64,000 nt of DNA, taken from positions 1-64,000 of the forward strand of contig JADZCV010000028.1 of assembly GCA_020851375.1 (NCBI GenBank), given 5' to 3'. Position 1 is the first letter of the stretch, and every line of letters begins with the position of its first letter. This document shows, one piece after another, positions 18,407-57,369 of the stretch. Made by a program: the position numbers and the translations under genes. The notes below the pieces were generated by a model, which did no database searches, was not told where the DNA came from, and saw nothing but the letters and a program-made list of their open reading frames with translations. The stretch is from Nitrospirota bacterium. Its GTDB lineage: Bacteria > Nitrospirota > 9FT-COMBO-42-15 > HDB-SIOI813.

Positions 18407-18940
18407 TTAATCTGGAAGGCAAACTTTCCCGCCGCCACCTTCAACAGCTATATTTAGTGCATGGCCAGCTTTTTGCCTAAGAGTTACAATATCACTCGCA
18501 TGCGTCGGGAAACATGCAACGCCTATACTCGTCGTCATACCGATCAGATGTCCATTAGTTTTAAATGTATAATTTTCTATGCGCTCTTTGATCCTAACAC
18601 CTACCTTCAAAGATGACTGATAATCTGCCTGGTCTAATATAAGAATAAATTTATCATCCCCAATCCTGCCTATAATGTCGGTTGACCTTATCTCCTCCTT
18701 AACTATTGCGGCAAGCTTCCGTATAAGCTCATCTTCTTCAGGGTGCGTCAGCTCTTTTAAAATTTTATCCCTTTGAACTACCATAAGCGAGAAAAAGTAA
18801 AGGTATCTCGCAGCCTTTTTCACCTCAATGTTAAGCATATAGTCAAATGCTTCCTTATCAAGGGCCTGTGTTACCTTATCAAACATAAGACTTACTTGTC
18901 CTCTTGGAATTATTTCCATGCTCAATGTTGAAACATGCAA
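18407..18940 (-). CDS. Stand-alone degenerate GGDEF-domain protein
   Basis: This 177-residue protein is a single GGDEF-like domain with no sensor or membrane part. The active-site loop reads GRIGDDKFILIL where R-[FY]-GGDEF is expected, and the usual DxDxFKxxND substrate-binding motif is absent. The second half (IGMTTSIGVACFP, then the helix LRQKAGHALNIA) is well kept. It is more likely a nucleotide sensor or structural partner than an active cyclase, though activity cannot be excluded. The start is TTG with GAGGAG upstream; an ATG seven codons in is an alternative. It is first in the operon with the chain-length protein and kinase, about 20 nt from the predicted sigma-54 start site. Confidence 0.8.
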   Translation of the reverse strand: MHVSTLSMEIIPRGQVSLMFDKVTQALDKEAFDYMLNIEVKKAARYLYFFSLMVVQRDKILKELTHPEEDELIRKLAAIVKEEIRSTDIIGRIGDDKFILILDQADYQSSLKVGVRIKERIENYTFKTNGHLIGMTTSIGVACFPTHASDIVTLRQKAGHALNIAVEGGGGKVCLPD

Positions 18941-18971: not shown

Positions 18972-18987
18972 TGCAATATCAATGCCA
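18972..18987 (-). promoter_or_regulatory. Sigma-54 promoter of the GGDEF/chain-length/kinase operon
   Basis: Minus-strand TGGCATTGATATTGCA has GG and GC at the correct -24/-12 spacing. It differs by one base from the promoter at 29554-29569. The predicted start is near 18961, about 20 nt before the GGDEF start codon. Nothing else was recognised in the remaining gap to 19154. Confidence 0.88.
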
Positions 18988-24576: not shown

Positions 24577-25932
24577 TTATCTCATCGTAATTCCATACTT
24601 GTTTATCATTGCGGTAAGGGTCTGACGACTTATATCAAGCTCCCTCGCGGCATGTGTTACGTTACTGCCGTGTCTTAGGAGCGCCTCACTTATAACACGT
24701 TTCTCGAGTGCCTCTCTCGCCTCGTGAAGGGACAGTATCTGTTTAGCACCATCAGGCGCGGCAAACTCAAGGTCAGACGGTGACAACCACTCGCCGTCTG
24801 ACATCACCACCCCCCTTTTTACCCTGTTTTCAAGCTCGCGAACATTGCCAGGCCAGTCATAATCCGATAAAGCCTTGACAGTCTCGTCTTTAAATCCGCG
24901 AACATTTTTTTTAAATTCTCTTGAGTATCTGTGCAAAAAGGCACGTGCAAGCAACAGGGCGTCATTTCCCCTTTCCCTTAGTGGCGGCAGATTCACAGTA
25001 ACCACACTCAGTCGGAAATAGAGGTCTTCCCGGAACTTGCCCTCTTCAATGGCCTTCTTAAGGTCCCTGTTGGTAGCGGCAAGTATTCGGACATCCACCT
25101 GGATTTCCTCCCTGCCTCCGACACGCTCGATAATGCGCTCCTGCAAAAACCTCAGCAGCTTGACCTGAAGAGAGAAAGAGAGCTCGCCTATTTCATCCAG
25201 AAATAAGGTGCCTCCCTCTGCATATTCGATCCTTCCCTTTTTCCGGCTGTCCGCGCCGGTAAAAGCCCCTTTCTCGTGGCCAAACAATTCACTCTCCAGC
25301 AGTGTTTCGGGTATTGCACCGCAGTTTATTACGACAAAAGGTTTATCCCTGCGCTCACTTAGCCGGTGAACAGCCCTCGCTGTAAGCTCCTTTCCGGTTC
25401 CTGATTCTCCAAGTATCACTACCGGCACATCAACAGTTGCCACCTTCCGTATAGCCTCGTATACTTGATTCATGGAAGCAGAGTTACCGAGCATTCCATC
25501 CAGCCCTTCTGTGTAAACCCTGCGCTGGAGGGTTTGATTCTCCAGTTCAAGTTCGGCCATCCTCAACGCCCTTGTAATGACTACCCTGACCTCATCAATA
25601 ACAGGAGGTTTCGTAAAGAAATCAAAGGCGCCAAGCTCTATCGCCTTTAAGGCATTCGCCCTCTCCGTGTTACCGCTTACTATGATGACCTTGATCCTGT
25701 CATTAAAAGAGAGAATCTCTCTTAGTGTCTTCAAACCTTCTTCTGCCTCGCGGGGCCTTGGAGGAAGGCCTAAATCAAGGATTACAACAACTGGGTGGGC
25801 CTTTCTGACAAGTTCCAATGCTGAGGCGTGATCACCGGCCTCATAGATTTCGTAATCTTTGAGGAGCGCCCACCTCATCTGGGACCTGATTGACTCATCA
25901 TCATCAACTATAAGTATTACACGCTTCGTCAT
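24577..25932 (-). CDS. prsR: PEP-CTERM system response regulator PrsR (NtrC type)
   Basis: This 451-residue response regulator has a receiver domain (about 1-125; phospho-acceptor D53 in ILDLGLPP, acidic DDDE near the N-terminus), an AAA+ sigma-54 activator core ([38 protein letters not shown]) and a C-terminal Fis-type helix-turn-helix ([20 protein letters not shown]). It overlaps prsK by 4 nt (ATGA), so the two form one two-component system. In the known PEP-CTERM systems this pair is linked to EPS and PEP-CTERM genes. The sigma-54 promoters in this window are its most likely targets. Confidence 0.95.
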
Positions 25933-28031
25933 CTTGGTAATATTACACGAAACTCGCTCCCTTTACCAACTTCACTTATTACCTCGAGGCTTCCTGAATG
26001 GGCATCAATAATCTTTTTACACTGAAATAAACCTATCCCAAGCCCGTTCGATTTACTGCTTTTGAACGGCTTAAAAAGGGCTGTTTTGATAAATTCTTCT
26101 GACATGCCGGATCCTGAATCTGCTACGGATAAGATAACATCGCCGTTACTGGAAAATGTGTGAACTGTGATTTTCTTTTCATGCTCACCTGGCGGCAACG
26201 CCTCTATCGCATTAAGCAATAAATTCAGAAAGACCTTTTGCAATTGACCACAGTCCGCATCAATTAACGGTATTTCTTCGAGATTCTTTACTACCCTGCC
26301 GGAAACCTTGCCATTAAGGGCAGAGAGCGTTTCCTCTATCATCTCATTGATACTCATGCGTGCAGGATTAATTTGAATCCCCTTGGACAATACAGTAAGG
26401 TTAGACACCATCGCATTCATCTTAGATACGGTTAGTCTCAGCGTCTTTAGTGCGTCTTGCTGAAATAACGGGTTACCCATATGTTCTTCTGCATTCTGGC
26501 TTAGCAGTGAAAGAGTTGAAACAAAATTTTTCAGGTCGTGGATGAAAAAGGTAGAAACCTGATGGAATGCCTCTGTCTCTTTAGAGGCAAGAAGTTCCTG
26601 AGTCAGATGGATGTTCCTGATTCTCTCCGCAGCATGACTTGCCACTGCCTTTAATAAATCAAAATCATCTCTTCTGTATGGCTCTCCTGAAATGTCTTCA
26701 CCCTGCATAATAAAGCCCATCAGATTACCCCTTCCGGCCTTCAGGGGTGTACAGAGAACTGTTCGGCTTGTTGTGAAAAGGGGGTTGATTAATTCATAAA
26801 GCGCTTCACTATCGTTCTGTTTATTAATAAAAAAGGGGTCAGCATAGTCCTTTATCCTTGAAATAAGGGGACTGTCTTCCTTCAATCTGATATTATTTGC
26901 TGCATTTATTGTTGACTTAACAGGCATAAACTCACGATGTGCCGGCTCATAAATCCAGAGGGATACCTCTCTGGCCGCCATAGTGTCAGAGATCATATCT
27001 AACAGAGATTTTTCAATCTGTGAAAGATCGTTATTTAATCCGAACTTCTCTATTGTCTCCATCCATTTATCCCTGAATTCATATTTGTGCCTGTAAAAGT
27101 GCCTTGTGATGAATAATTGCAGCCGTCTTCGAAGACTCGTCGAAAGAGCAGCTACCACTAAGCATAAAATAGCAGTAAATGTAAAAAGGATACTCCAGAA
27201 AGTATCATATGATTCTCCCATCATCTTGATGCCCTGCGCAATTATACCTACAATAAGCAGATACGCACCGGCAACCAATACAGTGACAGAATTAAAGACT
27301 ACGTAGCGGGAAATAAAGATATTCACATCCAGCAGTTTGTTCCTGACCACCGCAAGCATTGTAATAATACAAGAAACCAGTATGACGATTGAGGTAACCG
27401 ACTGATTACTGCTATCAAGAAATGAGAAGAGGATTGCCTGACTTGCAAGATAAACATAATACGCAAGCATTGAGCCAACCCCTATTAAAACGTACTTAGC
27501 CTCTTTTCTCTTTGAGTTCAACGAAAAATGAAGGGTATTCTCCAACTGAACAAGACAAAGCAAAATGCCAATAAGGAAATACAGGTAAAAAGACTTCCCT
27601 ACTGCACCAAGAGGGAATTTTGTATTTACGTCATCAAAAAAAGGAAGATCAATAAAGGCATACGAGTTTATCCATAGAAGAAAGAATCCTGAAATAAGAT
27701 AAAGTCCTGCCGCAAGAAGCTTCCAGCGGGCAAGCAATTCTTTATAATTTGACCTTATAAAGGTAAGTGAGAAGAGAAACCAGCCAGGAACAAGAAGCGC
27801 CTGACCGGCAATTGCTATTCTTTTGCCAAAAAGGCTCCATGACAAACTGTCTGACATGAAGACAATACTATTCCCTGCCTCAATAATGGTCAGACTTAAC
27901 ATGCCCAGGCCAAAACCTATATTGGCAGGATGTCTGGGATTACGGATGAAAACAAGAAGACCTACGCCAAGGGTTAGGATGACCCCCAAAAAAGACAAGA
28001 TCAAAAAGATATGGCTTGGATCATGGGACAT
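25929..28031 (-). CDS. prsK: PEP-CTERM system sensor histidine kinase PrsK
   Basis: This 700-residue membrane histidine kinase has about eight or nine N-terminal transmembrane segments (to about residue 290), a GAF-like cytoplasmic domain (about 320-480; NSEALYELINPLF, TPLKAGRGNLMGFIMQGED), then the transmitter. The phospho-His is H498 in FIHDLKNFVS. The N box is NLLLNAIEAL, G1 DSGSGMSEE and G2 SNGLGIGLFQCKKI. It phosphorylates PrsR, with which it overlaps by four bases. The signal is unknown; the membrane half suggests it senses envelope state. Confidence 0.95.
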   Translation of the reverse strand: MSHDPSHIFLILSFLGVILTLGVGLLVFIRNPRHPANIGFGLGMLSLTIIEAGNSIVFMSDSLSWSLFGKRIAIAGQALLVPGWFLFSLTFIRSNYKELLARWKLLAAGLYLISGFFLLWINSYAFIDLPFFDDVNTKFPLGAVGKSFYLYFLIGILLCLVQLENTLHFSLNSKRKEAKYVLIGVGSMLAYYVYLASQAILFSFLDSSNQSVTSIVILVSCIITMLAVVRNKLLDVNIFISRYVVFNSVTVLVAGAYLLIVGIIAQGIKMMGESYDTFWSILFTFTAILCLVVAALSTSLRRRLQLFITRHFYRHKYEFRDKWMETIEKFGLNNDLSQIEKSLLDMISDTMAAREVSLWIYEPAHREFMPVKSTINAANNIRLKEDSPLISRIKDYADPFFINKQNDSEALYELINPLFTTSRTVLCTPLKAGRGNLMGFIMQGEDISGEPYRRDDFDLLKAVASHAAERIRNIHLTQELLASKETEAFHQVSTFFIHDLKNFVSTLSLLSQNAEEHMGNPLFQQDALKTLRLTVSKMNAMVSNLTVLSKGIQINPARMSINEMIEETLSALNGKVSGRVVKNLEEIPLIDADCGQLQKVFLNLLLNAIEALPPGEHEKKITVHTFSSNGDVILSVADSGSGMSEEFIKTALFKPFKSSKSNGLGIGLFQCKKIIDAHSGSLEVISEVGKGSEFRVILPR

Positions 28032-28052
28032 CTCAAGGTCATATATTGCAAT

Positions 28053-29063
28053 TTATGGGCCAGATATACCTTCATTCCCTTTTGTCAGATCATGCGGAAT
28101 TCCAAGCTTTTTCATCTTTTGATTCAGGGTATTTCTGTGTATTTTAAGCAGCCTTGCCGCCAGGTTTCTGTTCCACTTTGAACCATGCAGTGCCTTCATT
28201 ATCTCGCCCTTTTCATAAACCCTGCAGCGCTGTTGTAAGCTCTCCGAACCTTCTGTAATAGCCCTGTAACCACTCTTGTCCCTGCAAAGGAGGTCCATGG
28301 GAATATCCTTTATAGTAATATCCATTCTATCATCTGAAAGGACAACAACCCTCTCGATGAGATTCTCAAACTCACGTACATTTCCCGGCCATGCCCAATC
28401 CTGAAGTATACGGACCACCTCACTTGAATAACGAGGTTTCGCCTTGTTTAATTTCGAACACGCCTTGTCAAGGAAGTGCTCCAATAAAATGGGGATGTCT
28501 CCCTTTCTTTCCCTCAAAGGCGGGAGATGAATAGGGATCACATTTAATCTGAAATAGAGATCAGACCTGAAGCTGCCATTTTCAACAAGCTCATCCAACT
28601 TGTCATTAGTCGCAGATATGACACGAATATCCAATCTAATCGTCTTTACAGAACCCAGTCTCTTGATTTCACGTTCCTGCAGGGTGCGAAGCAACTTTGC
28701 CTGCAGGGGGAACGGGAGAGCAGACACTTCATCCAGGAATATCGTACCACCATGGGCGCTTTCAAAATCACCAATTCTGGCGCTAACAGCCCCTGTAAAT
28801 GCGCCGCGCTCATATCCCATGAGCTCACTTTCTAACAACTCCCGTGGGATTGCCCCGCAATTGACCGGAACAAACGGGCCTTTTGACCTGGAACTTACTT
28901 TGTGTATACCCTTTGCAATCAACTCTTTTCCTGTCCCACTTTCTCCGGAAATCAGGACGCTGCTATTAGACCGTGCAGCCCTTCGCGCCATATCAAGAAC
29001 ATTAATGACATTGGGATCAGATGTCTTTATCTCTTCAAACCCGTTGGCAATATTTACACTCAT
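28053..29063 (-). CDS. Second receiver-less sigma-54-dependent activator
   Basis: This 336-residue enhancer-binding protein has a very short N-terminus, an AAA+ core ([37 protein letters not shown]) and a Fis-type helix-turn-helix (NRNLAARLLKIHRNTLNQKM). It lies 21 nt upstream of prsK-prsR in the same direction, so these three probably form a regulatory operon. It has its own sigma-54 promoter (29103-29118), which suggests autoactivation or activation by PrsR. AGGGGTGGGAA precedes the ATG. The regulatory signal is not visible in the sequence. Confidence 0.92.
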   Translation of the reverse strand: MSVNIANGFEEIKTSDPNVINVLDMARRAARSNSSVLISGESGTGKELIAKGIHKVSSRSKGPFVPVNCGAIPRELLESELMGYERGAFTGAVSARIGDFESAHGGTIFLDEVSALPFPLQAKLLRTLQEREIKRLGSVKTIRLDIRVISATNDKLDELVENGSFRSDLYFRLNVIPIHLPPLRERKGDIPILLEHFLDKACSKLNKAKPRYSSEVVRILQDWAWPGNVREFENLIERVVVLSDDRMDITIKDIPMDLLCRDKSGYRAITEGSESLQQRCRVYEKGEIMKALHGSKWNRNLAARLLKIHRNTLNQKMKKLGIPHDLTKGNEGISGP

Positions 29064-29692: not shown

Positions 29693-29738
29693 GTTTTCAT
29701 AAATCTTATAAAATGTATAACGAAGGGATATGCCACGT

Positions 29739-31136
29739 ATGAAGCGCGTACATAACAGATATGCTTTTTCAAGAAATTTGGTATTACCCCTAATAGAAGG
29801 AGCAATAATTTTCCTCTGCGTGTTTCTGGCAGTCATAATCAGGTTTCAATTTGTTAGCAGGAGCATCTACTCCTACGAATATCTAATATTAAAGGTTTTA
29901 GTTGTTACTCTCGTTTGTCAGGTTACTTTTTATTATAATGACATGTATTCCATCAATTTCAAGGGGCGCGCACGGCTTCTAAGCATCAAATTACTCCAAT
30001 CTCTGAGCGCAACCGTTATCTTGCTTTCTATAATTTACTATGTTTTTCCGCCTCTCATAATTGGAAGGGGTATATTTCTAATCACAGTAACAACATTAAC
30101 ACCGGTGCTTTTGATCTGGAGGTTAATCAGTGCCAGGATTTCTGTTCTGCACAAAAACAGTGAAAACATACTTATCATTGGCACAGGTGATCTGGCCGTA
30201 GAAATAGGTAAAAGAATATTTAAAGACGGTTATGCTGGTTATAAGATATCAGGTTTCATAGATGAAAACAAAAATAAAAAAAGGATAGGACAAAGCCTGT
30301 TTAATCCCAAAATAATTGGTACATTCGATGACATATATTCCATCGCCCGCGAGGAAGATACCAGTAAGATTATTGTTGCAATGGAAGATATGAGGGGACG
30401 ATTTCCGATTGAACAGCTCCTCAAATTAAGGCTTGATGGGATAGAGGTCGAAGATGGCATTTCTTTTTATGAAAAGATAAGCGGAAAGATACATGTCAGT
30501 CATCTGAAACCAGCGTGGTTAATTTTCTCCGAAGGCTTCAACAGGCGCAGGATAGAGATTAGTAAGCGCATCATAGATATATCGCTTTCCACTACAGGGC
30601 TTCTACTCGCTGCACCTGTTATGCTCATTACAACTATACTTATCAAACTGGAGTCGCCAGGTCCTGTATTATTCAGACAGGAGAGGGTTGGTGAGGGTGA
30701 GAGAGTTTTTACGCTTCTTAAATTCAGATCAATGAAGATGGATGCAGAATCTGAATCAGGTCCTGTATGGGCGAATATTAATGATAACAGGGTAACAAGA
30801 ATAGGCAGCATCATCAGAAAGTCGAGGATTGATGAGATCCCCCAGATGATCAACGTATTAAAGGGGGACATGAGCTTTGTTGGGCCCCGGCCTGAACGTC
30901 CGCACTTTATTGCGATGCTTGTAAAACAGATACCATATTATTCGCTCAGGCATAAAGTAAAACCCGGTATAACAGGTTGGGCTCAGGTAAGATATCCCTA
31001 TGGCGCATCAGTGAAAGATGCGCTGGAAAAATTACAATACGATATTTATTACATTAAGAACATGTCAGTTCTATACGACCTTACGATTGTGCTTGAGACA
31101 ATAAAAACGGTTATTCGGGGAACAGGGGCCAGGTAA
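29739..31136 (+). CDS. EPS-initiating polyprenyl sugar-phosphate transferase
   Basis: This 465-residue integral membrane enzyme moves a sugar-1-phosphate from a UDP-sugar to undecaprenyl phosphate, the first step of EPS repeat assembly. It has four N-terminal TM segments, a Rossmann-like CoA_binding_3 middle (NILIIGTGDLAVEIG), a fifth hydrophobic segment (LLLAAPVMLITTILIKLESP) and the catalytic bacterial sugar transferase domain (KFRSMKMDAE, RIGSIIRKSRIDEIPQ, GDMSFVGPRPERP, HKVKPGITGWAQV). It matches the PEP-CTERM/EpsH1-associated family. ATG codons at 29730 and 29739 are both possible; GAAGGG is better spaced from the latter. It is a single gene under a sigma-54 promoter. Confidence 0.93.
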   Translation: MKRVHNRYAFSRNLVLPLIEGAIIFLCVFLAVIIRFQFVSRSIYSYEYLILKVLVVTLVCQVTFYYNDMYSINFKGRARLLSIKLLQSLSATVILLSIIYYVFPPLIIGRGIFLITVTTLTPVLLIWRLISARISVLHKNSENILIIGTGDLAVEIGKRIFKDGYAGYKISGFIDENKNKKRIGQSLFNPKIIGTFDDIYSIAREEDTSKIIVAMEDMRGRFPIEQLLKLRLDGIEVEDGISFYEKISGKIHVSHLKPAWLIFSEGFNRRRIEISKRIIDISLSTTGLLLAAPVMLITTILIKLESPGPVLFRQERVGEGERVFTLLKFRSMKMDAESESGPVWANINDNRVTRIGSIIRKSRIDEIPQMINVLKGDMSFVGPRPERPHFIAMLVKQIPYYSLRHKVKPGITGWAQVRYPYGASVKDALEKLQYDIYYIKNMSVLYDLTIVLETIKTVIRGTGAR

Positions 31137-32549: not shown

Positions 32550-32565
32550 CGGCATTGATCTTGCT
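32550..32565 (+). promoter_or_regulatory. Sigma-54 promoter of the surface-protein operon
   Basis: CGGCATTGATCTTGCT has GG and TTGC at exact -24/-12 spacing and closely resembles the other sites. The predicted start is near 32576, about 30 nt before the riboswitch. The 245 nt upstream (32305-32549) hold no gene that I can see. Confidence 0.8.
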
Positions 32566-32605
32566 AAGCCTTTATCAGAATACACTTCATAAAAGTTTCA
32601 TCCTT

Positions 32606-32693
32606 TGCTCAGAGCAAACCTGCCGAAAGTCAGGGACGCAGAGTAACGGGACTAAAGGACGTCTTTTTGAGTCCTATTGTTCGCCGAGCCGCC
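32606..32693 (+). ncRNA. GEMM-I cyclic-dinucleotide riboswitch aptamer
   Basis: The conserved GEMM-I core is easy to read: GCAAACC (32614-32620), a CCTG/CAGG stem closed by a GAAA tetraloop (32625-32628), GACGCAGAG (ligand-stacking A at 32640), a GGACTAAAGGAC arm with tetraloop-receptor-like CTAA/CTAT, and a CGCCGAGCCGCC 3' end. The base in the position of Vc2 G20 is A (32613). In Geobacter GEMM-Ib RNAs this change goes with 3',3'-cGAMP rather than c-di-GMP. A terminator overlaps the 3' end, and the FN3 operon follows. Confidence 0.9.
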
Positions 32694-32725
32694 AGAGGAA
32701 TATTATGTTTTCTGGCGGTTTTTTT
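32689..32725 (+). terminator. Riboswitch-controlled intrinsic terminator
   Basis: CCGCCAGA (32689-32696) pairs with TCTGGCGG (32711-32718), followed by seven T. The left arm uses the last bases of the aptamer (GAGCCGCC), so aptamer folding and termination exclude each other. That geometry predicts that ligand binding turns the operon on (inference). Confidence 0.92.
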
Positions 32726-32744
32726 ATGAGCAAATGGAGGAAAC

Positions 32745-35162
32745 ATGCAACTGGTAAAACAAAAAGAAGTGCGTGAATTAGTATGCAGCATAAGGTCACT
32801 AATAATATTTTTCATTTTATTACTTCTCGTTTCAACTCTTTTTAACGTCTTTCCCGGTTTGACTTCCCATGCCAGCGCGGGGCAAATTACTTTAACCTGG
32901 GACCCCAACACGCAACCCGATTTTGCGGGGTACAACGTCTATTACGGAAATACGTCAGGAACCTATAGCACCAGGTTAAATGTGGGTACTGTTACATCCT
33001 ATACAGTAACGAATCTGTCAGATACAGCAACCTATTTCCTTGCCGTAACTGCCTATGATTCGGCCGGCAATGAGAGTGACTACTCAAATGAAGTCTACAA
33101 TCTCGGACTGGATACGACGCCTCCGGTTATATCCGGTACAACTGCCAGCAGTATTACCAGTACCAGCGCTGTAATTACATGGACTACCAGTGAGTCCTCC
33201 ACATCTCAAATAGAGTACGGCACAACGACATCTTATAATCTTTCAACGACCATAGACAACTCGCTGCAAACATCGCACAGTGTCACATTAACAGGGCTTT
33301 CAGCCTGGACCACTTATCATTACAGGGTAAAGAGCAGTGACGCGGCTGGTAATATGGCAACTTCTTCAGACCAAACCTTTACTACGCTGGCACCGCCTGA
33401 CACAACTTCACCCATCGGCACAATCTCTATCAGCAGCGGAGCGACATACTCAACTGCAACCACTGTCAGCCTGACTCTTTACTGCAGCGACGCAGGCTCA
33501 GGCTGTAACCAGATGCAGTTATCTAACGATGGGACGACCTGGAATACCTGGGAGACTTATGCAACAAGTAAGTCATGGACATTACAGGCTGGTGATGGAA
33601 CTAAAACCGTCTATGCACGGTATCGTGACAACTCAGGCAATGTCTCCTCTAATTATTCAGATACGATCACGCTGGACTCTACTGCCCCCGCGATCTCAGG
33701 AATAAGCGCAAGCAGCCTAACAAGTACACAGGCAACAATTACCTGGACGACCCAGGAAGCCTCCTCCACACAAGTAGAATATGGAACAACGACTTCCTAT
33801 GGTTCCTCGTCAACATTGAACAGCAATCCGGTCACCACCCACAGCGTCACCCTGGCCAACCTCTCAGCATCTTCTACCTATCACTTCCGGGTGAAGAGCA
33901 GTGATGCGGCCGGCAACCTTGCAACATCTTCAGACCAGACCTTTACTACAACAGCGCCGCCTGATACCACACCTCCTGTAATTTCAGGCGTGACCACAGG
34001 CAACATTACAACAAGCGGCGCGACAATAAGCTGGACAACAAACGAACCAGCCACCACCCAGGCAGAATATGGAACAACGTCCTCCCTCGGATCCCTGAGC
34101 CCGTCAGATAGTGCCTTAGTCACGAGTCACTCTGCCATCCTGACGGGCCTCAGCCCCAACACCACCTATTACTTTAAGGTACGTTCTATTGATGGGGCCG
34201 GGAATAACACACTGTCAGCCCAATACTCCTTTGTGACCCTCCAGGTGGCTCTCCCGGATACCCCAACAGCAATCCAGGACCTTCATGTCACTTCCGGCTC
34301 TTCTACCAGGAACTCTGTGGTAGTGATGTGGACCGCCACAGGGGCAGACGGTTCTGTTGGAACAGCATCCCTGTATGACCTTCGTATATCCAAATTAAAG
34401 ATTATAGAAGACAACCTCACTCCAAATACCGGAGAAGTCACATTTGCTAATGCAACAGCCGTAACAGGAGTCCCGGCGCCACAACCGTCAGGGACAAGCC
34501 AGTCCGTTCAGATTACGGGTCTTGAAACCAACACCGTCTACTACCTTGCCATCAAGGCTATTGATAACAAAGGAAACAAGTCCCCTATCTCCAATGTTGT
34601 CAACGAGGGAAACCTCCCCCCCCTCCCCATAACTGCCGTGCGTCAGGGATACACGTTGATTTCATTACCTCTGGCGCCGGTGACCACGGATGTCCAGACA
34701 TTACTCGGAAATATTGTCGGCTCACCTGTGGAGCTCTACTGGTGGAACTCCTCCGGTGGTTCTGATGCCTCCGGAGCCCTTGTGAAAGAAACAAATGTAG
34801 TACCCGGCTATGGCTATTTCCTAAAGTCTGACAGGACAAATGCCGTTTTTAATATAGCCGGTACGATAGTTACCGATCCAAACCGTGCGATCCCTATTCA
34901 ACCTGGATGGAACATGATTGGAAACCCTTACCCTGCTGAAATTGCATTAAAGAATACACAGATAAGAAATCTTGCAACCAGCGAGGTCAAGACCTTCGAA
35001 GAAGCTGTCGTTGCCGGATGGGTGGGTAATGCCATATATAGTTACAACGGGAGCACATATGATTTTGCAATCCATTCAACTGCAACTTTAAGGCTTTGGC
35101 ATGGATACTGGCTTGCCGTATTGGGGGAGGAAATGTATGAACTCATTATTACGAAACCATAA
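32745..35162 (+). CDS. Large secreted fibronectin type III repeat protein
   Basis: This 805-residue secreted protein has a signal peptide (LIIFFILLLLVSTLFNVFPG, cleaved near ASA-GQ). FN3-like units cover about 46-125, 125-215, 311-405, 406-500 and 503-620, with another beta-sandwich at about 215-310. Units share ATITWTT..EYGTTTSY and TYHFRVKSSDAAGN. The C-terminal 170 residues form a different Gly/Trp-rich beta region (PGYGYFLKS, WNMIGNPYPAEI, LWHGYWLAV). No PEP-CTERM signal or LPXTG is present. It is probably an adhesin or matrix protein. TGGAGGAAAC precedes the ATG. It is first gene of the riboswitch-controlled operon. Confidence 0.88.
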   Translation: MQLVKQKEVRELVCSIRSLIIFFILLLLVSTLFNVFPGLTSHASAGQITLTWDPNTQPDFAGYNVYYGNTSGTYSTRLNVGTVTSYTVTNLSDTATYFLAVTAYDSAGNESDYSNEVYNLGLDTTPPVISGTTASSITSTSAVITWTTSESSTSQIEYGTTTSYNLSTTIDNSLQTSHSVTLTGLSAWTTYHYRVKSSDAAGNMATSSDQTFTTLAPPDTTSPIGTISISSGATYSTATTVSLTLYCSDAGSGCNQMQLSNDGTTWNTWETYATSKSWTLQAGDGTKTVYARYRDNSGNVSSNYSDTITLDSTAPAISGISASSLTSTQATITWTTQEASSTQVEYGTTTSYGSSSTLNSNPVTTHSVTLANLSASSTYHFRVKSSDAAGNLATSSDQTFTTTAPPDTTPPVISGVTTGNITTSGATISWTTNEPATTQAEYGTTSSLGSLSPSDSALVTSHSAILTGLSPNTTYYFKVRSIDGAGNNTLSAQYSFVTLQVALPDTPTAIQDLHVTSGSSTRNSVVVMWTATGADGSVGTASLYDLRISKLKIIEDNLTPNTGEVTFANATAVTGVPAPQPSGTSQSVQITGLETNTVYYLAIKAIDNKGNKSPISNVVNEGNLPPLPITAVRQGYTLISLPLAPVTTDVQTLLGNIVGSPVELYWWNSSGGSDASGALVKETNVVPGYGYFLKSDRTNAVFNIAGTIVTDPNRAIPIQPGWNMIGNPYPAEIALKNTQIRNLATSEVKTFEEAVVAGWVGNAIYSYNGSTYDFAIHSTATLRLWHGYWLAVLGEEMYELIITKP

Positions 35163-35844
35163 CATGTATATTCGATTGATCGGCTTCACCATGATGATTG
35201 TGATCTCCTGGATATTTGTTAATCCAGGACATACGGCCTGGCAAGTTGACTTTCAGGTGTCGCTGCCTGATCAGGCAGCGGATAACGGTCATGCATCAAA
35301 CCGGTTGGTCCTGGGCCTGGATAACACTGCTACGGACAACTTTGATAATCTGCTGGATACAGTAGCATATGCCGGAGGTAAAGTTAATGCTTACTTCCTC
35401 CATCCCGAATATGCCACTGCCAAATCCAAATTGTGGCAAGATAAGCGTGACAATCAACTTCCAAAAGAGTGGGAAATTGAAGTGTCTTCTTCTCTGACAG
35501 GACAGGCAAATATAACGTGGGACACTAATAACGTTCCGTCGAATGTGTCCCTTAAGCTTACAGATGGACAGACAGGCACTACAATAGATATGAAGACCAT
35601 GAGCGAATATACCTTTCAGAACAGCCCCACTGTGGCGAGGAAGATCACCCTTCTTGCATCTCAGGATGCAGGTGCCGGTGAGACACCGCAGACCGCCAGC
35701 CAGGGGGGAGGATGCGGTTATATAAAGGACATCGGAAACAATAAATCCAATCCAATGAATCCCGGCACTGCAGCCATAAATGTCCTGATACTTTTTATTC
35801 CACTTGTTGGTCTGCGATTCCTTAGATTGACTATGAGGGGTTAA
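35137..35844 (+). CDS. Secreted protein with Cys-containing tripartite C-terminal tail
   Basis: This 235-residue protein has an N-terminal signal (YIRLIGFTMMIVISWIFVNP) and a beta-rich body with no family I recognise. The C-terminus has three parts: a Gly-Cys motif (QGGGCGYIKDIG), a hydrophobic helix (AAINVLILFIPLVGLRFL) and a basic end (RLTMRG). This layout resembles sorting signals such as GlyGly-CTERM or Synerg-CTERM, but I cannot assign it to a named one. GGGGGAGG lies seven bases before the ATG at 35137, and the gene overlaps the FN3 gene by 26 nt, so the two are translationally coupled. Confidence 0.75.
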   Translation: MNSLLRNHNMYIRLIGFTMMIVISWIFVNPGHTAWQVDFQVSLPDQAADNGHASNRLVLGLDNTATDNFDNLLDTVAYAGGKVNAYFLHPEYATAKSKLWQDKRDNQLPKEWEIEVSSSLTGQANITWDTNNVPSNVSLKLTDGQTGTTIDMKTMSEYTFQNSPTVARKITLLASQDAGAGETPQTASQGGGCGYIKDIGNNKSNPMNPGTAAINVLILFIPLVGLRFLRLTMRG

Positions 35845-35864: not shown

Positions 35865-36275
35865 ATGATGAACTGGATGGGCTCGTTTTTTAGACGGATA
35901 TTATTCTTCCTTGCGGTCTTTACTCTTGTTGCATGTGCAGGGTGTGGTGGAGAGAACGGAGGAATTGGAAATCTGGGAGGTGGGGGCAACGATACCGGAG
36001 GAGGCAGCGAAAGTTCGGATCCTTCAACACTTTCCTGGGATCGAAACACACAGCCAGATTTGGCCGGATACAAAATCTATTATGGAACAACATCTGGTGA
36101 TTATACTGCATCAAAGGATGTTGGTTTGACTAATACACCCAGCTACCCCAAGTATCCTGTTGCTGACATTAGCAGCCTTAGCAAGGGAGAAAAATACTAT
36201 TTTGTTGTTACAGCATATGATACAGTCGGTAATGAGAGCGATTATTCCAATGAAGTTTATACAATAATACCATAA
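35865..36275 (+). CDS. Small lipoprotein with one fibronectin type III domain
   Basis: This 136-residue lipoprotein has signal FFLAVFTLVAC with lipobox LVAC, a Gly-rich linker (GGIGNLGGGGNDTGGG) and one FN3-like domain. That domain is strikingly like the first FN3 unit of the large protein upstream: W-D-x-N-T-Q-P-D-x-A-G-Y near the start and GNESDYSNEVY at the end in both. It could be a membrane-anchored docking partner for the FN3 protein. The gap to the preceding gene is 20 nt. Three in-frame ATGs (35865, 35868, 35877) compete as start. Confidence 0.82.
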   Translation: MMNWMGSFFRRILFFLAVFTLVACAGCGGENGGIGNLGGGGNDTGGGSESSDPSTLSWDRNTQPDLAGYKIYYGTTSGDYTASKDVGLTNTPSYPKYPVADISSLSKGEKYYFVVTAYDTVGNESDYSNEVYTIIP

Positions 36276-36322: not shown

Positions 36323-38032
36323 ATGAAGAAGTATATAAAAAAGTCTCAACATTTTTGGAGTGGCCTTGTTCTGTTGTTCGTAATCATGGCTTTCCCAGTA
36401 TCTGTTCTGGCAGCACCTGCCATCTTGTTTACAGATATTCTGTCTGGCCCTAATACAGGCGGAAAAAATAACAACGGAGTTTTTGTCTGCATTTATGGCA
36501 AGAATTTCGGAGCCACACAAGGTTTAAGTAAGGTTTTTATCAACAACACAGAAGTGGCATCCTACGAGTATTGGGGAGTTTCTGACACGGCACCAAACTA
36601 TTATGATAAAATTTGTGTACAGCCTGGTACTTCAGTAACAACCGGCGCTATTAAGGTTCGCGCCGATGGAGTAAATTCAAATACGGATCATACTTTTACT
36701 GTTCGATCCGGGAATATATATTTCGTTGACCTAAATTCTCCTGCCAGTCCAGGTACTGGAACATATGCTGATCCATTTAGAAATCCTAATTCCTGCATAA
36801 ATAATAGTAGCATCGTTGCCGGTGATACATGTTATTTCAGGGGTGGAACTTACGGCACTAATACGACTCCTACAATGTATGGTTATACCACAGGTGGAGC
36901 CGTTTTTACGTTACGAGACATCAATAATGGAGGTAGTTCAAGATCTGGAACATCTTCTGCACCTATAGCATTTGTTGGTTACCCTGGCGAAGATGTATTT
37001 CTCAATGCCCAAGGTTCTTCCAGCCCAATTAGGGGTTTTCGCGGCTATTTTGCCCCTGATTGGATAACAGTGGCTGGATTTAGGGTTTTAGCTTTTACGG
37101 TATGTTTTTCGGCAGGATCAAATCAAGACCGTCAAGGTAACGGTTGGAGGATTGTTGCGAATAACTGTAACGGATTAACCACAACTAATATGGTTCAGAC
37201 TGGAACAATACTACCCGGAAAAGATAATGCGAAGGTTTTAGGAAATAGGATTTGGGGAGGCAGGACTGGTAGTAAGTTCGACCATGCTGTATATTCTCAA
37301 GCTTGTTCTCAAGATACGGAAATGGCATTTAACCATGTCTATGACAATAGTTTTGATAGCGGACCTCTTTTATCTTTAAATTACGAATCAACGAATTGCG
37401 CATCGACAGAATATGCAGGCAATGTGTATATGCATGATAACTTCCTAGATGCTACTAATTATCCGGTAAGATGCATTTATATATACGAACAATCTTATCG
37501 TACGGGTGATCCCACCCCGCCTCCCACGGCTTATATCTATAATAATGTCTTTTATAACTGTGGATATTCTACCGATGGCGCACTTGCTCTTGCAAATGGG
37601 AATGCAGAAATATACAACAATACATTTTATAATACGCGGTCATATGCTATCAGTTTCAATAATCCAAATGGCGCTCCTATACCATCTGTCATTATAAAGA
37701 ATAATATTTTTCACAATCAGAGTGGGTCTAATGGTTATTATAGGCAGTCAGATATTGTTTCATCACTAACATCTTCCAATAATCTTTACTACGGTCTTGG
37801 TACCTACTCAGGTACGGAAGATTCAAACCCAAGGACTGGGGATCCCTTGTTTGTTAATCCCACAGCAAAAGATCTTCATTTAAGAAGCAGCAGCCCGGCT
37901 TTTAAAGCAGGGTTATCAACAGTTAATAACGTCCTAACGAAAGATTTTGAGGGTATTTTACGGACAAAAGATTCTTTTTTTGATATAGGTGCATACGAGT
38001 ACGTTGTAACTCCACCTGTTAACTTAAGATGA
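36323..38032 (+). CDS. Secreted right-handed beta-helix protein with an IPT/TIG-like domain
   Basis: This 569-residue secreted protein has a signal peptide (LVLLFVIMAFPVSVLA-AP), then an IPT/TIG-like domain (about 35-125: GPNTGGKNNNGVFVCIYGKN). A parallel beta-helix follows (about 130-520) with repeated motifs such as YIYNNVFYNC, EIYNNTFYNT and IIKNNIFHNQ. The C-terminal FDIGAYEY is common in such surface proteins. The fold is that of pectate lyases and EPS depolymerases, but catalytic residues cannot be named. It ends the riboswitch operon. Its base composition is more AT-rich than the FN3 genes. Confidence 0.85.
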   Translation: MKKYIKKSQHFWSGLVLLFVIMAFPVSVLAAPAILFTDILSGPNTGGKNNNGVFVCIYGKNFGATQGLSKVFINNTEVASYEYWGVSDTAPNYYDKICVQPGTSVTTGAIKVRADGVNSNTDHTFTVRSGNIYFVDLNSPASPGTGTYADPFRNPNSCINNSSIVAGDTCYFRGGTYGTNTTPTMYGYTTGGAVFTLRDINNGGSSRSGTSSAPIAFVGYPGEDVFLNAQGSSSPIRGFRGYFAPDWITVAGFRVLAFTVCFSAGSNQDRQGNGWRIVANNCNGLTTTNMVQTGTILPGKDNAKVLGNRIWGGRTGSKFDHAVYSQACSQDTEMAFNHVYDNSFDSGPLLSLNYESTNCASTEYAGNVYMHDNFLDATNYPVRCIYIYEQSYRTGDPTPPPTAYIYNNVFYNCGYSTDGALALANGNAEIYNNTFYNTRSYAISFNNPNGAPIPSVIIKNNIFHNQSGSNGYYRQSDIVSSLTSSNNLYYGLGTYSGTEDSNPRTGDPLFVNPTAKDLHLRSSSPAFKAGLSTVNNVLTKDFEGILRTKDSFFDIGAYEYVVTPPVNLR

Positions 38033-55758: not shown

Positions 55759-57369
55759 TTACTTGCCAGGGAGATAGTTGTGAACAGCAAGCATTGCATC
55801 CCGGATAAAACGCCGCTCATTCTCAAATCCATTTTCAGGTTGTTCCTGTTGTCCAAGCGGAGCAGATATGGACACTAATGCTCCATTGGTTCTGCCATAT
55901 ACAAGCGCATCCCATATAGTATATAGTTTAGCTATATAACGATTCGCGACAACACGGCCATTTAAACTATACCAGAAAAGGACAGCCTGGGGCGAATTCC
56001 CTTCATTTAATACTACCTGATTGACCTTATACTTTTTTCCATCCACTCCTGTGATCCCCACAGTCCCGTCACCCCGATGGAATATCCACGATGTCTTGTA
56101 CATAATTAGTTCCTTCCCCTGCTGCTGGTCATCGAAGTAGGCAATATATAGCTTTACGGTATTGCCAATCTTGTCCCGGTAAATCCGCATCAGTTCTTCA
56201 TCCGCCCAGTCGAGCCTCAGCGTATACATTCCAGGATCAACATCTTCTCCCTTCCACTCTCCAATAATCATTGGAAAGGTCATGAAGCCATCTTTGAGAG
56301 GGATGGGAACCGTACGGTGAAGATAGTAGTAGCCTCCTATCGCCATAAGAAGAACTATTGCCACAAACAAGGGCATCCTGAACTTACCACTTTGAGCAGC
56401 TTCAAGCCATTTATGCCATTGATATCTTAAATCAGATTTTGCGCCCTTCAGTGATTTTCCGGATATTACAGGATACTTGTCACCCCTGGGCCCCTTACTG
56501 AGAATCCATGCCCCGACAAAAAGGACAATAAACCCGACCCAGCTTACGAACACCCCGTACAGAACATGGAACGGGCCATGGATGTCTGCGTCTCCATTAT
56601 GATAGGCCCACACCCCGATCAGGGCGACCCTGATCCCATTCGCAATGATTGCGACGATTACAGCAAATAGAACGAGTCCGATTTTTCGAAACCAGGTTCG
56701 TTGCGTCACATGGGCTAAAGGGATCCCAATAGCAATAATGGAAACAAGAAACCGGACGCCGCTGCAGGCCGCTGCCACCTCCAGCGTTACCCTTGGCAAC
56801 TGGATATAATTGGCTTCCTGATAAGCAGCGAAACCAAATAACCTAAGGAGCCACACTCCGATATCGGCTGCAACAAGCTGAAACGGCCAGTGAAACCAAT
56901 CAACTCCCTCCCCGAAGATTTTGATCATAAAAAGGAGATAGGCAATCGGTAAGGCAAGCATCCTGAGGCAAGCTACACCCAGGAGCAGGGCGATCAAACC
57001 TGCAATCATAACCAGCATGGATAATTCCTGCAGGACTGCTATCTCACCGGCCCTGCCAAAGTTTAACAGGAAGCCGGCTGACAGGATCAACAAAACCCCG
57101 ATTTTCAGATTTGGATTAGACCGGATATCCCTTAATTGTTCCCGCTTAACCCATACCAGGTAGAGTGAGATAAATGGAACAAAAAAACCGTGGCTATAGT
57201 CATCACTGCTCCACCACATCTTAAGCAATGCCTGAAATGTTGGGAAGTACAAGACTACAAATGCCGCAAGGAGGAAGAGGACTTGAACGGGTATCCCTCG
57301 TATAACAGCAATATCCCGTACGGCAGGAACATTTAATGACCCCGGGTTTTCTTTATCCATACGCTTCAT
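55759..57369 (-). CDS. xrtA: Exosortase A fused to an EpsI (DUF3485) domain
   Basis: This 536-residue integral membrane transpeptidase-like enzyme recognises PEP-CTERM tails. The exosortase part (about 25-295, eight or so TM helices) carries the catalytic triad: Cys202 in AAACSGVRF, Arg247 in ANGIRVALIG and His268 in GPFHVLYG. The C-terminal EpsI/DUF3485 domain (about 345-536: FPMIIGEWKG, LYIAYFDDQQQGKELI, FWYSLNGRVVANRYIAKL) is periplasmic and is often joined or adjacent in this type. It should process the two PEP-CTERM proteins at 22.7-24.3 kb. Confidence 0.95.
   Translation of the reverse strand: MKRMDKENPGSLNVPAVRDIAVIRGIPVQVLFLLAAFVVLYFPTFQALLKMWWSSDDYSHGFFVPFISLYLVWVKREQLRDIRSNPNLKIGVLLILSAGFLLNFGRAGEIAVLQELSMLVMIAGLIALLLGVACLRMLALPIAYLLFMIKIFGEGVDWFHWPFQLVAADIGVWLLRLFGFAAYQEANYIQLPRVTLEVAAACSGVRFLVSIIAIGIPLAHVTQRTWFRKIGLVLFAVIVAIIANGIRVALIGVWAYHNGDADIHGPFHVLYGVFVSWVGFIVLFVGAWILSKGPRGDKYPVISGKSLKGAKSDLRYQWHKWLEAAQSGKFRMPLFVAIVLLMAIGGYYYLHRTVPIPLKDGFMTFPMIIGEWKGEDVDPGMYTLRLDWADEELMRIYRDKIGNTVKLYIAYFDDQQQGKELIMYKTSWIFHRGDGTVGITGVDGKKYKVNQVVLNEGNSPQAVLFWYSLNGRVVANRYIAKLYTIWDALVYGRTNGALVSISAPLGQQEQPENGFENERRFIRDAMLAVHNYLPGK

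Follow-up and report, generated by a model that had tools for sequence, protein, structure and literature searches.

Surface-protein operon in an exosortase/EPS locus

The window, i.e., the whole 64,000-nt stretch of DNA analysed here, belongs to a Nitrospirota genome (G000; 2.5 Mb, 98% complete), one of ten family genomes that we compared. The first-pass annotation had described surface-protein genes within an exosortase/EPS locus, and the family searches agree: FN3 repeats, a choice-of-anchor Q protein and XrtW/PEP-CTERM genes are all present. The relevant genes are:

24577-29063, minus strand: PrsR, PrsK and a further sigma-54 activator of the PEP-CTERM system (TIGR02915, 610 bits; TIGR02916, 386 bits)
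29730-31136, plus strand: XrtA/PEP-CTERM-type sugar transferase (EpsB_2; TIGR03013, 480 bits)
32745-35162, plus strand: secreted surface protein of 805 aa with FN3 repeats, heading the operon (Pfam fn3, 1.7e-35)
35164-35844, plus strand: secreted protein with a GGGCGYIK motif and then a C-terminal hydrophobic stretch (seven-member alignment; start at 35101 in the listed open reading frame)
35865-36275, plus strand: third gene, FN3 lipoprotein-like protein, conserved in relatives
36323-38032, plus strand: choice-of-anchor Q surface protein, probably beta-helical (NF041518)
55759-57369, minus strand: exosortase W (NF038142, 582 bits; cut-off 425)

PrsT, a chain-length determinant and a choice-of-anchor N PEP-CTERM protein are also encoded around the operon, and the FN3 protein itself shows no PEP-CTERM. 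We infer a surface or matrix function for the operon. Its first three genes recur as a group in three family genomes, next to PrsK/PrsR (G003), an exosortase-like gene (G006) and glycosyltransferases (G007); an exosortase-like gene also lies beside genes 1 and 2 in G002 (C18). These neighbours, in all four genomes, were named from sequence reading, not from family searches.

The family of the second gene (35164-35844) shares an invariant GGGCG(Y/H)IK, a hydrophobic stretch and basic residues, a pattern resembling an undescribed C-terminal sorting signal. At 18407-18940 on the minus strand, a degenerate GGDEF-domain protein (IGDDKF, no Asp/Ser348 motif) adjoins an XrtA-type chain-length determinant, and a related copy is found on the contig of the FN3 operon in G002 (C25). 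A possible role of this protein is signal binding rather than catalysis.

A GEMM-I aptamer with adenine at the ligand-contact position

An Rfam search of the window returned a sole match, to RF01051 (c-di-GMP-I/GEMM-I), at 32603-32696 on the plus strand (E 1.2e-6). The score of 49.5 bits compares with a gathering score of 35, and positions 1-87 of the 87-position model are covered; the GEMM-I aptamer core proposed from the first reading is thus confirmed end to end. The aptamer had been placed from 32606 onwards and does lie there, but P1 begins slightly upstream, at 32601. The leader contains the following elements, all on the plus strand:

32550-32564: candidate sigma-54 (-24/-12) type promoter, CGGCATTGATCTTGC, ~40 nt upstream of the aptamer
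32601-32699: GEMM-I aptamer (RF01051, 49.5 bits; covariation in nine relatives; P1 from sequence)
32601-32607/32693-32699, 32614-32639 and 32643-32689: helices P1, P2 and P3
32604-32618: UUUGCU-CAG-AGCAAA, in which the P1 5′ strand is complementary to A20 and GCAAA of the pocket
32613: A at the ligand-contact position Vc2 G20, equal to A14 of the solved cGAMP riboswitch (RF01051 alignment; numbering of PMC6274999)
32641: G at Vc2 position 48, coupled to A20 across the phylum
32692: C92 equivalent, the partner of the ligand's guanine half; within the terminator it pairs with G32715
32686-32727: intrinsic terminator (stem and T-run) overlapping P3, C92 and the P1 3′ strand

P1 is formed by UCCUUUG (32601-32607) and CAGAGGA (32693-32699). 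In the solved cGAMP riboswitch, P1 is closed by G8-C76, J1/2 comprises A9-A14, and A41 and C75 complete the positions used here (PMC6274999). Mapped onto this structure, the closing pair of the window aptamer is G32607-C32693. A32613 lies six bases 3′ of the closing G and immediately 5′ of GCAAAC, and the structural mapping bears out the earlier assignment of A, not G, to this contact base (PMC6274999). The conserved pocket A and C are present as A32640 (A41; Vc2 A47) and C32692 (C75; Vc2 C92). The first P2 pair is G32614-C32639, and P2 carries a C-U mismatch (32623/32630). The crystallised Geobacter aptamer Gs1761 has a C-G first P2 pair and A42 at Vc2 position 48 (PMC6274999).

P1, P2 with a GNRA loop and P3 are all present and backed by covariation. 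In an alignment (A1) of nine group-I sequences (see below) from the host's family, running from the aptamer through the terminator, 85% of the cells in the aptamer helices were paired, with two-sided changes at 8 pairs. The covariation was 0.285, as against 0.156 for shuffled alignments and at most 0.129 for slid partners. A plasmid BLAST search with the window leader gave no match.

GEMM-I riboswitches in the host genome and its family

The host genome contains seven GEMM-I elements, five with A20 and two with G20, and the window aptamer is the lowest-scoring of them (49.5 bits). Since A20 and G20 elements occur in one genome, both ligand types probably coexist there. For a single element of this genome (L001), RF03167 (c-di-GMP-I-GGC) was the better model; L001 has A20/A47, against the A47G of the RF03167 consensus, and RF03167 was set aside.

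Altogether, 32 elements were found across the ten genomes and sorted into groups I, II and III by flanking sequence. All nine members of group I (CTTTGCT[C/A]AG-AGCAA.., GAAA loop) have A20. They precede the FN3 operon in the window, in G002 (twice), G003 and G004, a homolog of gene 2 in G007, and a cytochrome operon in G000 (C25), G002 (C4) and G006 (C68). Orthologs of the FN3 protein in other genera are likewise preceded by an A20 riboswitch. Group II (CACCGATAAT-AGCAAAC; n = 8) also has A20 throughout (8/8), and its target is a secreted protein of 201-202 aa with a HEYGHA motif. Group III (n = 15) comprises 11 G20 and four A20 elements.

The HEYGHA protein (L023:6543-7145; orthologs in L133, L136, L145, L147, L148, L155 and L158) gave no Pfam or NCBIfam match. 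An A20 switch stands before it in 8/8 genomes having it, which makes it the family's most constant target. In the group II leader of L023, the aptamer carries GCCGAAGTGG at its 3′ end; complementary to it is CCACTTCGGCC, which sits 3′ of the terminator near the ribosome site; the group II expression platform differs from that of group I.

In the host genome, the A20 switch on contig C25 (G000:C25:40003-47003; L022:7004-14004) precedes a multiheme-cytochrome operon. It codes for a protein of 1638 aa that carries 68 CXXCH motifs, together with a membrane-like protein of 301 aa (hydrophobic profile) and an exported protein of 388 aa. This operon may form an extracellular electron conduit controlled by cGAMP. 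A 16-kb contig of the same genome (L021; G000:C31) holds three paralogous GEMM-I elements at 1401, 7573 and 11572, two with A20 and one with G20, i.e., a natural pair to probe ligand choice.

No GEMM-I element was detected at the FN3 homologs G009:C122 and G007:C43 (minus strand). Five loci around EpsB homologs gave no GEMM-I or other Rfam match within the fetched flanks because these flanks did not include a switch; the whole genome behind one of the five (L108) has two GEMM-I elements.

The terminator and the bound aptamer are mutually exclusive

The terminator stem comprises 14 bp (32686-32699 with 32708-32721) and is followed by a T-run. The 45-nt hairpin has a predicted energy of -20.7 kcal/mol (z -6.0), and none of 200 shuffled sequences was equally stable. 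In alignment A1, 95% of the terminator cells were paired, with a covariation of 0.278. The overlapping intrinsic terminator (32686-32727) pointed out in the first-pass annotation is thus conserved in nine relatives. Its 5′ arm holds C92 and the whole P1 3′ strand, so the bound aptamer and the terminator exclude each other. The same layout at Geobacter pilM is that of a cGAMP-bound ON switch (PMC9262584), and loss of the cGAMP synthase in Geobacter leads to fewer transcripts behind GEMM-Ib switches (PMC6456294). By analogy of the aptamer/terminator anatomy with Geobacter, we infer an ON polarity for the window switch.

The 6-bp complementarity between the P1 5′ strand and the pocket is present in 8/9 group-I elements and in none of groups II and III; it also occurs in many A20/G48 elements of other families. 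Both segments, the P1 5′ strand and A20-GCAAA, are nearly invariant in group I. The resulting hairpin could keep the pocket closed once the terminator takes the P1 3′ strand and might represent an OFF state.

A candidate sigma-54 promoter as second input

No sigma-70 promoter was found on the plus strand upstream of the aptamer. The site at 32550-32564 aligns with TGGCAT-N5-[AT]TGC of five FN3-operon relatives and has the exact GG-N10-GC spacing. This motif lies 57-63 nt upstream of the aptamer in 5/5 other riboswitch-preceded copies of the operon (G002 twice, G003, G004 and G007). A strict sigma-54 pattern matched ten of 75 leaders, compared with 0.4 expected from shuffling; the window site, one mismatch away from this pattern (C for T), escaped it and was recognised by alignment alone. 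Among the same leaders, those of the cytochrome operons and of groups II and III lack the strict pattern. Further sigma-54-like sites on the minus strand precede the window genes at 18972, 24331 and 28047; as 12 such matches occur in the window versus 7.6 expected, each site is weak on its own. The conserved placement suggests sigma-54 control of the window operon. Because PrsR is a sigma-54-type activator (TIGR02915), PrsK-PrsR is a candidate for activating the FN3 operon through this promoter.

A candidate cGAMP synthase

Hypr enzymes are recognised by Ser or Thr at position 348 with GGDE[F/Y] and by a non-Arg residue at cross-dimer position 304 (PMC6456294). Among 13 GGDEF matches in the host genome, where the first-pass annotation had proposed to look for a Hypr-type synthase, a single one on contig C25 (C25:71336-71812) carries this signature. 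It reads NDTHGHLIGS ... GGDEF, with Ser at position 348, which is Asp in canonical cyclases, and Leu at position 304, where GacA has Tyr and canonical enzymes have Arg. The full protein (L025:4770-5843; 358 aa) has a GAF-GGDEF architecture, and its gene lies between secA and smc; its best PDB match is GmGacA (6d9m, E 5.5e-44). Orthologs with Ser and GGDEF are present in 10/10 family genomes, and the other GGDEF domains read in these genomes have Asp at 348. In a tree, GmGacA grouped with the ten family Hypr proteins (support 93/84), a placement to be read with caution given the long GmGacA branch. By its signature, L025:4770-5843 is a candidate Hypr cGAMP synthase.

A20 riboswitches across the Nitrospirota

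The same 198 Nitrospirota genomes were surveyed with patterns for strict A20 and G20 aptamer cores, filtered for a real P2 stem, and with a DNA pattern for NDxxGHxxGS, filtered for GH[LIMF]xG followed by a codon starting with AG. A20 elements occurred in 39 genomes, 37 found by pattern plus G005 and G008 from the family element set. The Hypr signature was present in 36/39 A20 genomes and in 47/159 others (Fisher 3e-13, a value inflated by relatedness); counted by family, it was found in 13/15 A20 families versus 11/18 others. Genomes with G20 elements only showed no such association (10/21 versus 73/177, p 0.64). Furthermore, position 48, the base after A47, is G in 55/71 A20 cores and in 0/57 G20 cores. 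The window aptamer combines A20 and G48. As Gs1761 has A at this position, A20/G48 elements may form a distinct riboswitch subclass, Geobacter being represented in this comparison by Gs1761 alone.

In addition to the FN3 and cytochrome operons of the host's family, A20 elements precede pilM (TIGR01175, 315 and 141 bits) in G024 and G015 (family f7) and in G040 (f14), FN3 proteins in G156, G158 and G182, beta-helix proteins in G043 and G182, a cytochrome fragment in G036, and lipoproteins. The pilM loci L186 and L187 (G024, G015) and L184 (G040), from two other Nitrospirota families, lie directly behind the A20 elements. In G156, the genes behind A20 switches encode an FN3 protein, a short FN3 protein and a choice-of-anchor Q protein. 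The FN3 proteins of G156 and the window share 44% identity over 399 residues, and the window's choice-of-anchor Q protein is 30% identical to a gene product of an A20-riboswitch operon in G156. Loci L174 and L175 of G156 carry tandem A20 switches before FN3 genes, one copy near a polysaccharide-export-like gene; they resemble the tandem cGAMP switches of Geobacter.

Proposed mechanism and identity of the ligand

We consider it probable that the window element is a GEMM-I cGAMP-type (GEMM-Ib-like) transcriptional ON switch for the FN3/beta-helix surface operon. What can be read directly from the DNA is the aptamer with its A20, the terminator incompatible with the bound aptamer, the gene with the Hypr signature, and the conserved arrangement. 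According to the model, the transcript would probably start at the sigma-54 promoter ~40 nt upstream of the aptamer, and the genome's Hypr GGDEF enzyme would make 3′,3′-cGAMP. Binding at A32613, A32640 and C32692 would hold P1 together, so that its 3′ strand is no longer free to build the terminator. RNA polymerase would then enter the operon for the FN3 protein, the GGGCGYIK-motif protein, the FN3 lipoprotein and the choice-of-anchor Q protein. When the ligand is absent, the terminator would form.

As the ligand, cGAMP appears well supported by the genomics. The Geobacter cGAMP regulon includes pilM, extracellular cytochromes and polysaccharide genes (PMC6456294, PMC9262584), and the overlap of the Nitrospirota A20 targets with it favours this reading. 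The first-pass annotation had linked the A to cGAMP recognition; A20 does track the Hypr signature, but A20 alone is insufficient (PMC9262584, PMC6456294) and is by itself no proof of cGAMP selectivity. Switches of the cGAMP type can accommodate c-di-GMP when the adenine is protonated, changes in lower P2 shift ligand selectivity (PMC9262584), and the Geobacter GEMM-I switch omcST answers to both cGAMP and c-di-GMP (PMC6456294). Against the model count the many canonical GGDEF proteins of the genome, which would make c-di-GMP, the first P2 pair and base 48, which are unlike those of Gs1761, the P2 mismatch, the two FN3 homologs at which no GEMM-I was detected, and the imperfect sigma-54 site.

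The switch might be promiscuous, with the operon reading total cyclic dinucleotide. The omcST precedent (PMC6456294), c-di-GMP binding by cGAMP switches via a protonated A (PMC9262584) and the G-C first P2 pair unlike Gs1761 speak for this possibility. We nevertheless regard it as rather unlikely because G20 switches of the c-di-GMP type exist in the same genome and because A20, which goes together with G48 and with the presence of Hypr, does not vary among the group-I orthologs. An ordinary c-di-GMP switch with A20 as a tolerated substitution would share the fold and family (RF01051) and would fit both the Asp348 of most GGDEFs in the genome and the usual control of surface proteins by c-di-GMP. 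It is very improbable, however, given that A20 is fixed in groups I and II (17/17), in contrast to the mostly G20 paralogs of group III, and that Hypr genomes are associated with A20 but not with the presence of G20 alone. An aptamer that is degenerate, non-functional or specific for another ligand, left beside a constitutive terminator, would suit the lowest score among the seven matches and the P2 mismatch, but has next to no likelihood in view of the pocket, P1 and terminator conserved across genera with covariation and the maintained operon linkage.

A possible cGAMP circuit in the Nitrospirota

A link between cGAMP and matrix assembly had been regarded as new. This was overstated: GEMM-Ib elements upstream of polysaccharide genes have already been reported in Geobacter (PMC6456294), and the link is therefore not unprecedented. 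What looks new is the Nitrospirota phylum, the FN3-operon target, and the paired control by sigma-54 and a riboswitch. Our literature search found no paper linking cGAMP, a riboswitch and Nitrospirota. Work on signalling through cGAMP riboswitches has, to our knowledge, been confined almost entirely to Geobacter.

More tentatively, we suggest a phylum-wide Nitrospirota cGAMP circuit with its own A20/G48 subclass and a pocket-masking P1 strand. It would switch on pili, very large multiheme cytochromes and FN3/beta-helix operons, with a sigma-54 promoter, possibly under PrsK-PrsR, at the FN3 operon. If so, matrix assembly and extracellular electron transfer would share one signal apart from c-di-GMP, and the same signal and kind of switch would serve another, mostly uncultured phylum. 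The targets would overlap those of Geobacter (pili, extracellular cytochromes) and additionally include exosortase-linked surface proteins. The genome-encoded Hypr enzyme and the aptamers form a pair open to testing in laboratory E. coli, with no need to culture the host, and the natural A20/G20 and G48/A48 variants offer material for asking what sets ligand choice.

Comparison with known systems

The window element shares with the Geobacter GEMM-Ib riboswitches (Gs1761, Gm0970, pilM) the GEMM-I fold, A at the G20 position, C92, A47, and a terminator employing the P1 3′ strand (ON logic); pilM and extracellular cytochromes are among the targets in both Geobacter and the Nitrospirota. It differs in its Nitrospirota host, in its target, an FN3/choice-of-anchor Q operon in an exosortase-W locus, in the sigma-54-type promoter in front, and in the complementarity between the P1 5′ strand and the pocket. 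Where Gs1761 has A48 and a C-G first P2 pair, the window has G48 and G-C. With the c-di-GMP-I riboswitch Vc2 it has in common the Rfam model RF01051, the tetraloop, the three-helix junction and the G-C first P2 pair, whereas position 20 is A in the window and G in Vc2.

The host's Hypr-signature enzyme resembles Geobacter GacA (6d9m) in Ser348, GGDEF and a non-Arg residue at 304; unlike GacA, which has Tyr at 304, it has Leu there, and it is a 358-aa GAF-GGDEF protein encoded between secA and smc. Finally, the locus has the XrtW, PrsK, PrsR, PrsT, chain-length determinant and EpsB-type transferase genes of PEP-CTERM/exosortase EPS loci, but differs from these in the FN3/choice-of-anchor Q operon that it contains, which lies behind a GEMM-I switch.
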